In this document: piece after piece, positions 5,825-7,698 of the stretch | Numbering within the stretch: the stretch's first letter is position 1 | Layout: each line of letters begins with the position of its first letter | Assembly: GCA_014360495.1 (NCBI GenBank) | Contig: JACIXR010000001.1 | Span: 310,001-374,000 of the forward strand | Direction of reading: 5' to 3' | From: a bacterium | GTDB taxonomy: Bacteria > Armatimonadota > JACIXR01 | DNA: 64,000 nucleotides | Made by a program: the position numbers and the translations under genes | Notes under the pieces: generated by a model | Told to the model about the DNA's origin: nothing | The model's database searches: none | What the model saw: the letters and a program-made list of their open reading frames with translations, nothing else

Positions 5825-6163
5825 AAAATCTTACACCTTAAGTGAAAATAATTCAAGAAAAAATACATATATAAAATATAGCTGTAGTGATTGGTATGTA
5901 AGTTATGTAAATTTTTTTAAAGTTAGTGATAGAATGAATAAGCTAAAATAAAAATAAAAAATTTATTTTGATATTGATAATTGAAAAAGAATATTTTACT
6001 CCAGTGGAATTTCTTAATCTTTTAAATTCCTTTTAGATTCTTGCAAAAATTTATTTTATTTATCTGTAATTTATAGGAAGTGAAATTGTAGATAAAATGT
6101 AACTAAATGTTAGTTTGGTAAACAAAAATGAGGACAACATGGGTTGTAAATAATTTATTTACA
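5825..6163. other. Very AT-rich intergenic region beside dnaA with terminal palindrome
   Basis: Non-coding stretch whose GC content falls to 12-30 percent line by line (only 7 of 60 bases are G or C in 5941-6000), far below the neighbouring genes. It ends in a 19-bp palindrome with 9-nt arms, TGTAAATAATTTATTTACA (6145-6163), which abuts the dnaA stop codon. Position and composition would fit a DNA-unwinding element or origin, but I see no TTATCCACA-type DnaA box. The palindrome could also be part of a terminator. Confidence 0.4.
5828..5856 (-). promoter_or_regulatory. Promoter of the metallophosphoesterase operon (TTGAAT-N17-TAAGAT)
   Basis: On the minus strand TTGAAT (5856-5851), a 17-nt spacer and TAAGAT (5833-5828) lie just upstream of the GGAGGTG site (5822-5816). 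The expected start of transcription falls at the edge of the Shine-Dalgarno, so the leader would be very short. Confidence 0.5.
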
Positions 6164-7537
6164 TTATGATTCTTTGCTGGGAAGGAGCTTGCTCGTGATA
6201 TCTTGAACCAACTTCGCCAACTCTTTATCCCTTTGCAATTCTTCCTTGATCTTATTATACCCGCTTATCACGGCGGGATGGGTTCTGCCAAGCGCCCTTG
6301 CTATTTCGGTTATGGGTGCGGAAGTGAGCTCCCGGCAAAGGTACATGCATATCTGGCGAGGTTGCGCTACCTTTTTGTCCTTTCTTTTCCCCCTGATAAG
6401 TCGCTGAGATATATTGAAATGCCTGCATACAGCTTTCACGACATCCTCTATTGTCAAATTTATCTGTTTTCTGCCGATGTAATCAACGAGGAGCTCCTCT
6501 GCCAAGGGCAGTGTTAGCTGGGTGCCATTAATTGATGTCCACGCCATAAGCTTGGCAAGGGCACCCTCTAAATCCCTGATATTCGTCTTTATCTCCCTCG
6601 CTACATAAAGCAATATCTCGGGAGATATGTTGAAGTTTTCCTGCTCTGCTTTCTTCTGAAGAATGGCGAGCCTCAGTTCAAGGTCGGGAGGTGATATGCC
6701 CATAACGGGTCCGTGTTTTAAGCGGGAGAGTATACGGGGATGGAGTGGGGCGAGCTCTTCCGGCGGTCTATCCGAGCAGATGATTATCTGCTTGCCCGTT
6801 TCATAAAGGGTGTTGAAGGTATGGAAGAATTCCTCTGTCGTTCTCTCCTTATCCGCGATGAACTGGATGTCGTCAACGAGCCAAACATCTATGTTCCTGT
6901 ATTTCTCCCTGAAGGCAGACATCCTCCCGTTCTTGATTGCCTCAACATATTCAAATGTGAAGTATTCGGCGGGAACATAGACTACCTCCATTTCGGAGGA
7001 TTCAAGGAGGGCATTGCCGACTGCTTGGATAAGATGGGTCTTACCGAGCCCGACTCCTCCGTGGATGAAGAGGGGATTGTAGGTTTTCCTCCCTGGTCTC
7101 TCTGATACATCCTTCGCCGCCGCATAGGCTAACCTGTTTGATTGACCGACAACGAAGTTCTCAAATGTATAGTTCTCGTTGAGGGAGAGACCGAAGGGAG
7201 GTTTGCGTTTCTTTGCTGTCTTTTTCCTCTCTCTCTTTTGAGGAGGCACGACATGGATTTCTATTTTCACTTGGTGCCCAGTGAATTTGGAGGCTGTTTC
7301 CTCAAGAAGGGAGAGATAATGCTTCTCAATCCATTCCTTGGCGAAGCGAGCGGACACAGTGAAGATGAACCTATCAATGCCAAGGGTCACGGGCTTCAGC
7401 TGGCTGAGCCAAAGGTCCCGTGATGAATCGGGGTCTTGCGCGATAAGGTACTGGGAGATTATCTCCCATTTATCCTTATCGGGCAGAAGATTGAACTTAT
7501 CTCCAAAATCCAAATTTAACTGGTCTTTAGCCCCCAT
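6164..7537 (-). CDS. dnaA: Chromosomal replication initiator DnaA
   Basis: AAA+ initiator that opens oriC. The 457-aa protein has an N-terminal DnaB/DiaA-interaction domain (1-95), a short basic linker (100-115) and an AAA+ core with Walker A GGVGLGKTHL (160-169) and Walker B WLVDDIQF (219-226). Domain IV is a C-terminal helix-turn-helix domain. The canonical GGRDHTTV recognition motif is replaced by GRTHPAV (417-423) and appears one residue shorter; the Asp and Thr that contact the DnaA box in E. coli are Thr and Pro here. The rest of domain IV (VAQPRQICMYLCRELT) is standard. The ATG at 7537 has GGAG 10 nt upstream. Unusually, dnaN is not next to it. Confidence 0.96.
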   Translation of the reverse strand: MGAKDQLNLDFGDKFNLLPDKDKWEIISQYLIAQDPDSSRDLWLSQLKPVTLGIDRFIFTVSARFAKEWIEKHYLSLLEETASKFTGHQVKIEIHVVPPQKRERKKTAKKRKPPFGLSLNENYTFENFVVGQSNRLAYAAAKDVSERPGRKTYNPLFIHGGVGLGKTHLIQAVGNALLESSEMEVVYVPAEYFTFEYVEAIKNGRMSAFREKYRNIDVWLVDDIQFIADKERTTEEFFHTFNTLYETGKQIIICSDRPPEELAPLHPRILSRLKHGPVMGISPPDLELRLAILQKKAEQENFNISPEILLYVAREIKTNIRDLEGALAKLMAWTSINGTQLTLPLAEELLVDYIGRKQINLTIEDVVKAVCRHFNISQRLIRGKRKDKKVAQPRQICMYLCRELTSAPITEIARALGRTHPAVISGYNKIKEELQRDKELAKLVQDITSKLLPSKES

Positions 7538-7698
7538 AGATATATGCTCCAGGGATAGGGTGAGGAAATAAGAAGCCTTGCCTATTTATAGATTACAAAT
7601 TCGCCTTTGGGAGGTCAAGAGAGGAGATTTGGGAAAAAAATATTTTAATCTTTTGCTATTTCGCTATTTCTTAAATATTCTGCTTTTTTTAAATAATT

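Follow-up and report, generated by a model that had tools for sequence, protein, structure and literature searches.

The window analysed here is a 64-kb stretch of DNA (contig C1, 310001–374000) that carries a dnaA gene on its reverse strand. The features discussed below are as follows.

6164–7537, reverse strand: dnaA, chromosomal replication initiator, 457 amino acids (TIGR00362 and Pfam domains)
7570–7618, reverse strand: probable dnaA promoter, with TTGACC (7613–7618), 17 bases, TAATCT (7590–7595) and then TAGGCAAGGCTTCTT (7570–7584); compared across three congeners, hexamers assigned by eye
6248–6451, reverse strand: domain IV, the DnaA-box-binding helix-turn-helix, residues 363–430 (PF08299, 82.8 bits; superposes on 3pvp)
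6380–6382, reverse strand: Lys386, aligned with E. coli Arg399, the minor-groove reader (column alignment)
6269–6289, reverse strand: altered motif G-R-T-H-P-A-V, residues 417–423, E. coli 431–437 (translation and column table)
6230–6280, reverse strand: recognition helix, residues 420–436, with Pro421 second (AlphaFold2 model)
5825–6163, no strand assigned: AT-rich region 3' of dnaA with a near-box, TTATCTACA, at 6087–6095 on the reverse strand (sequence inspection)

The gene is a full-length, single-copy and genuine dnaA. Its product scored 483 bits against TIGR00362 in a profile search (cut-off 343.9; residues 24–451), and domains I, III (AAA+) and IV were each recovered above cut-off (PF11638, PF00308 and PF08299). 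The AAA+ motif GxGxGKTHL is intact, and the orthologues in both congeners, G001 and G002, are 79–80% identical to the window protein. A family search of the own genome (2.55 Mb in 18 contigs, 97.2% complete) returned one PF08299 match, dnaA itself, and on this count a second dnaA was rejected. In a single-contig 3.44-Mb relative from the phylum, the dnaA match (G023:C1:1351943–1352970) is split over two overlapping frames by a frameshift, either real or a sequencing error.

The original prediction was that the most conserved part of domain IV reads GRTHPAV, with Asp-His-Thr changed to Thr-His-Pro and one Gly lost. Translation confirmed the motif as residues 417–423. Its codons lie at 6269–6289 on the reverse strand and not, as had been proposed, at 6290–6340, which encodes residues 400–416, the helix preceding the motif. 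The alignment, read in E. coli numbering, showed that the exchange of Asp433 for Thr and of Thr435 for Pro is real and that His434 is kept. Further changes are Thr436 to Ala, His439 to Ser and Pro423 to Thr; Arg432 is retained along with His434, and position 438 carries an Ile that is common elsewhere. PMC5043019 places the base-specific contacts of DnaA at residues 399, 423, 432–435 and 438–439, among which positions 423, 433, 435 and 439 differ in the window DnaA. Both congeners have the motif GKTHPAV, and the helix of the genus reads R/K-T-H-P-A in place of R-D-H-T/S-T; position 399 is Lys in the window DnaA, Arg in G001 and Lys in G002. We took Asp433 and His434 with Thr or Ser at 435 as the mark of canonical specificity, and the window DnaA has Thr, His and Pro at these places instead. 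In E. coli, helix 434–451 reads TnCACA, Arg399 reads TTA and the T435M mutant is defective in box binding (PMC5742627).

We evaluated the effect of these changes on the fold with an AlphaFold2 model (mean pLDDT 90, pTM 0.61, 44 aligned sequences), in which the recognition helix begins at His420 and Pro421 is its second residue, in the first turn. A helix can accommodate proline in its first turn. A structure search aligned the modelled domain IV with the M. tuberculosis DnaA-DBD/box complex 3pvp (Z 18.3; 1.4 Å over 95 residues). E. coli 1j1v did not appear among the matches listed, which does not count against a likeness to it. The model suggests that the DNA-binding fold is kept and that the helix is changed in its reading residues, not broken.

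We surveyed other DnaAs at the same columns. A search for relatives took in 61 genomes, of which 55 gave a DnaA match, and domain IV was read in 54 of the 55: three from the genus (own included) and 51 from other members of the phylum, the contig of G054 ending before domain IV. A further 64 DnaAs, mostly from named other phyla with a few records lacking a phylum name, came from 80 loci, 16 of which were dropped to leave those with a frame carrying Walker-type and PRQ[I/V] motifs. The Gly predicted to be lost is indeed absent, as all three members of the genus have a gap opposite E. coli position 430. The gap is not special, however, since it recurs in 13 of the 51 relatives and in M. tuberculosis. 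Asp occupies position 433 in 39 of the 51 relatives and 59 of the 64 others; it is lost in 12 relatives, including G045 (Asn), and two relatives have Thr. At position 435, every one of the 51 relatives carries Ser, Thr or Ala, and the 64 others all carry one of Thr, Ser, Ala and Gly. Pro435 is present in 3/3 members of the genus, 0/51 other phylum DnaAs and 0/64 further DnaAs, and it is present in T. maritima. The genus has Ser or Thr at 439, as do none of the relatives and one of the 64, and Thr at 423, as do three and one, respectively. The phylum-wide alignment that the prediction called for thus puts the missing Gly within normal variation and leaves Pro435 confined, among the relatives read, to the genus. 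The Thr-His-Pro helix, used as bait on 291 phylum genomes, found matches in 172; in 30 loci read from these matches (some from genomes already counted), His-Pro occurred in the three congeners and in none outside the genus. No paper on the DnaA of this lineage was apparent from titles or abstract openings among the matches listed. Another unusual recognition helix was seen in G006, G020 and G044 (L097, L152 and L100), where Tyr replaces the otherwise invariant His434 to give R-D-Y-T-T.

Two DnaAs with the same gap helped to separate the Gly from the other changes. Domain IV of M. tuberculosis DnaA (3pvp/3pvv, box-bound) shares the fold and the missing Gly, and it has Lys at the Arg399 position like the window DnaA; unlike the window DnaA, it retains both R-D-H-T-T and Pro423, and the box that it binds with high affinity is TTGTCCACA (PMC4285127). 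The DnaA of G012 (L090), from the same phylum, also lacks the Gly, yet its helix retains K-D-H-T, and nine TTWTNCACA boxes, mostly TTTTCCACA, are packed into about 280 bp of the stretch from its dnaA to a frame judged by eye to resemble dnaN. Loss of the Gly was therefore rejected as the cause of an altered specificity.

The closest likeness to the altered motif is in Thermotoga maritima, whose DnaA (2z4r/2z4s) has N-R-S-H-P-V-V at this place. The two proteins share R-x-H-P at E. coli 432–435, one Gly fewer, a small hydrophobic residue at 436 and the absence of Asp433 and His439. They differ at 423 (Arg in T. maritima, Thr in the window DnaA), 439 (Asp and Ser) and 431 (Asn and Gly). The T. 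maritima DnaA box is ACCTACCAC (PMC10316083), and its origin is described in PMC4285127 as the one analysed origin more than two mismatches from TTATCCACA. In a 46-row tree of the AAA+ domain, the genus fell inside a 22-row phylum clade (99/97) with T. maritima outside, although long branches (T. maritima and A. aeolicus) called for caution; once A. aeolicus was left out, the genus stayed in a phylum clade that excluded T. maritima (97/96), which sat on a long branch. The window domain IV scored 54.6 bits against M. tuberculosis, 52.8 against B. subtilis and 27.8 against T. maritima. An AU test did not reject a joint clade of the genus and T. maritima (p 0.302), and for this reason we call it probable, and no more than that, that the His-Pro helix arose independently in the two lineages by convergence.

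These comparisons suggest that box recognition by the window DnaA is probably altered. We consider it fairly likely that this is a normal, single-copy DnaA with a changed domain IV helix, one that no longer prefers TTATCCACA and reads another box. A proline in the first helix turn would be structurally harmless, yet it would remove the Thr435 contact, and the loss of Asp433 and His439 would remove further major-groove contacts. With the contacts at 435, 433 and 439 thus predicted to be gone, the protein would have lost its preference for TnCACA, the 3' half of TTATCCACA, and would bind another box, possibly with a CCAC-like core kept as in T. maritima; assembly, ATP use and unwinding would be otherwise standard. 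The proposal that the initiator recognises a different box thus gains from Pro435, which is restricted to the genus among relatives and shared with a species whose box is non-canonical, and from the lack of a canonical cluster among the 80 TTATNCACA sites of the assembly. Against it, no alternative box or origin was found, and the protein still has His434, Arg432 and, at 399, a basic residue. Loss of Asp433 alone does not imply a new box, because G045, with Asn, has five near-canonical boxes beside dnaA. The two reasons first offered for a changed box, the lost Gly and the boxless flanks, both fail: G012 has its boxes without the Gly, and empty flanks are weak evidence because dnaA lies only at a shallow skew dip and, of 27 relatives whose helices differ, 20 likewise lack three boxes within 300 bp beside dnaA.

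The helix could instead vary within tolerance, with TTATCCACA-type boxes still in use at an origin where they are few, degenerate, widely spaced or hidden in an assembly gap. We regard this explanation as unlikely, though it is the most serious competitor. The residues kept at 434, 432 and 399 speak for it, as do the relatives that combine a missing Gly or an Asn433 with canonical or near-canonical boxes, the incomplete 18-contig assembly, and Fimbriimonas, a named Armatimonadetes genome reported to have few, scattered TTATCCACA sites and a jagged skew (PMC4072686). It has to contend with Pro435, found in no other DnaA read except that of T. maritima, and with the binding defect of E. coli T435M (PMC5742627).

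Searches for canonical boxes bear on both explanations. Exact TTATCCACA was absent from the 64-kb window, where one-mismatch sites numbered 35 against 13.4 expected by shuffling and were dispersed. The flanks, predicted to hold no TTATCCACA-like box, are nearly free of them, the exception being TTATCTACA in the intergenic stretch 3' of dnaA (5825–6163), where inspection showed no repeated box. In G001, dnaA and the next frame lie only 35 bp apart. None of the three dnaA loci of the genus has more than one box in 300 bp. Among the 27 non-genus phylum loci (L085–L111), at least three boxes with no more than one mismatch were present in 300 bp beside dnaA in seven and fewer in 20, and the latter count favours tolerance of the helix change. 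So does the number of TTATNCACA sites in the assembly, 80 compared with 33 for a reversed control. All 80 were listed, however, and no three lie within 500 bp of each other anywhere in the assembly; the canonical cluster that would contradict a changed specificity if it lay at the true origin was not seen among them. No cluster was found among the 100 TTWTNCACA sites listed out of 157 in the own genome; TTTTNCACA sites were covered up to C7:106652, and on C9 and C13 those with at most one mismatch from TTATCCACA. No 300-bp stretch of contigs C1, C9 and C13, which together span about 594 kb, held more than two boxes of at most one mismatch. We take the excess of TTATNCACA and of one-mismatch sites, provisionally, for effects of sequence composition. 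A direct-pair pattern, TTATNCACAN{1,30}TTATNCACA, matched once in five genomes, at C5:230049–230078, and this pair falls within an open frame judged by eye to encode a glycosyltransferase-like protein. The pattern would miss the G012 cluster and so has no positive control, which makes the full listing of 80 sites the better test. Other close TTATNCACA pairs are at C6:168080/168332, in 126-bp repeats, and C7:129566/129956.

The shared R-x-H-P arrangement raises the possibility that the window DnaA binds the T. maritima box, ACCTACCAC, and a common origin of both helices would be compatible with the AU result. We consider this quite improbable. Exact ACCTACCAC was present at 10 scattered sites in the own genome, fewer than the 23 of the reversed control, and formed no cluster, inexact boxes being sought on three contigs. 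The three congeners together have 43 sites with a single close pair, inside a G001 frame that reads like clpX by eye. Three spaced CCAC cores occurred 39 times in the own genome and 33 times in the reversed control, not a clear excess over background, and the residues at 423 and 439 differ between the two proteins.

We attempted to locate the origin and a box of another sequence. Cumulative GC skew on C1 climbs from 0 to +7,713 over 403 kb. Around dnaA (C1:316 kb) it falls a little, its value being 6,287 at 300 kb and 5,518 at 320 kb; this is a shallow local dip and no major minimum. A family search located dnaN on C9, beside a frame that reads like recF by eye, and dnaA lies elsewhere. The origin is probably not at dnaA, although the local dip leaves some room for it. 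The rpmH locus, also found by family search, shows a local skew dip in 20-kb pieces, and the whole contigs have no clear V. No box cluster was seen beside dnaA, dnaN-recF or rpmH-rnpA-yidC-jag in the three congeners (rnpA, yidC and jag, like recF, named by eye).

The original prediction had also pointed to a repeated 9-mer other than the canonical box at origin candidates. We scanned contigs C1, C9 and C13 and other stretches, and no alternative box was found. Exact repeats (at least three in 400 bp) were sought in pieces of two congeners and, in the own genome, over about 327 kb; inexact repeats (at most one mismatch, at least five in 400 bp) were sought on the three contigs. Outside the strongest, repeat-rich stretches, nothing resembled the 13-copy cluster of the L090 control, the hits being checked against gene boundaries in part. 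We take the strongest hits, in these repeat-rich stretches, to be coding sequence, as we do a repeat at C1:221 kb. Among the controls for the inexact scan, the boxes of L092 were missed, L095 gave four copies and L102 six, and the scan can therefore miss an origin. ParB (TIGR00180), used as an origin marker, had no match in G000, G001 or G002, nor in the T. maritima control.

That the window gene is a paralogue or decaying copy of dnaA, with the true initiator elsewhere, draws on its distance from dnaN and from the main skew minimum of its contig and is extremely improbable, being largely refuted by the single PF08299 match and opposed by the intact domains and AAA+ motif, the 79–80% identical orthologues and a conserved promoter sequence.

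Returning to a genuine initiator with a changed helix, we propose tentatively, and with somewhat more doubt than belief, that a His-Pro helix has altered box specificity on two or more independent occasions, and that the box of the genus, being neither TTATCCACA nor ACCTACCAC, represents a further class of origin code. The DnaA box is among the most conserved protein-DNA codes in bacteria. A second lineage with a T. maritima-like helix change would allow the residue-to-base code of DnaA to be put to the test, and comparing two boxes and two helices would show which bases are fixed by Asp433 and Thr435. Such a lineage would also offer part of the reason why origin finders that seek TTATCCACA may fail on such genomes.

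Two further observations were made at the loci compared. The element TAGGCAAGGCTTCTT is identical in the three congeners amid diverged flanks (window 7570–7584, reverse strand; G001:C11:34023–34037; G002:C5:6051–6065). Counts at two mismatches or fewer were 14, 8 and 15 in the three congeners against 9, 7 and 13 for controls and gave no sign of a dispersed box. The element lies directly after the dnaA -10 hexamer and is a possible regulator site or leader element. Beside rpmH, six Ser/Arg tRNA genes with a small frame between them are conserved in 3/3 congeners (L153, 9188–10015; L154, 9047–9871; L155, 9286–10120).
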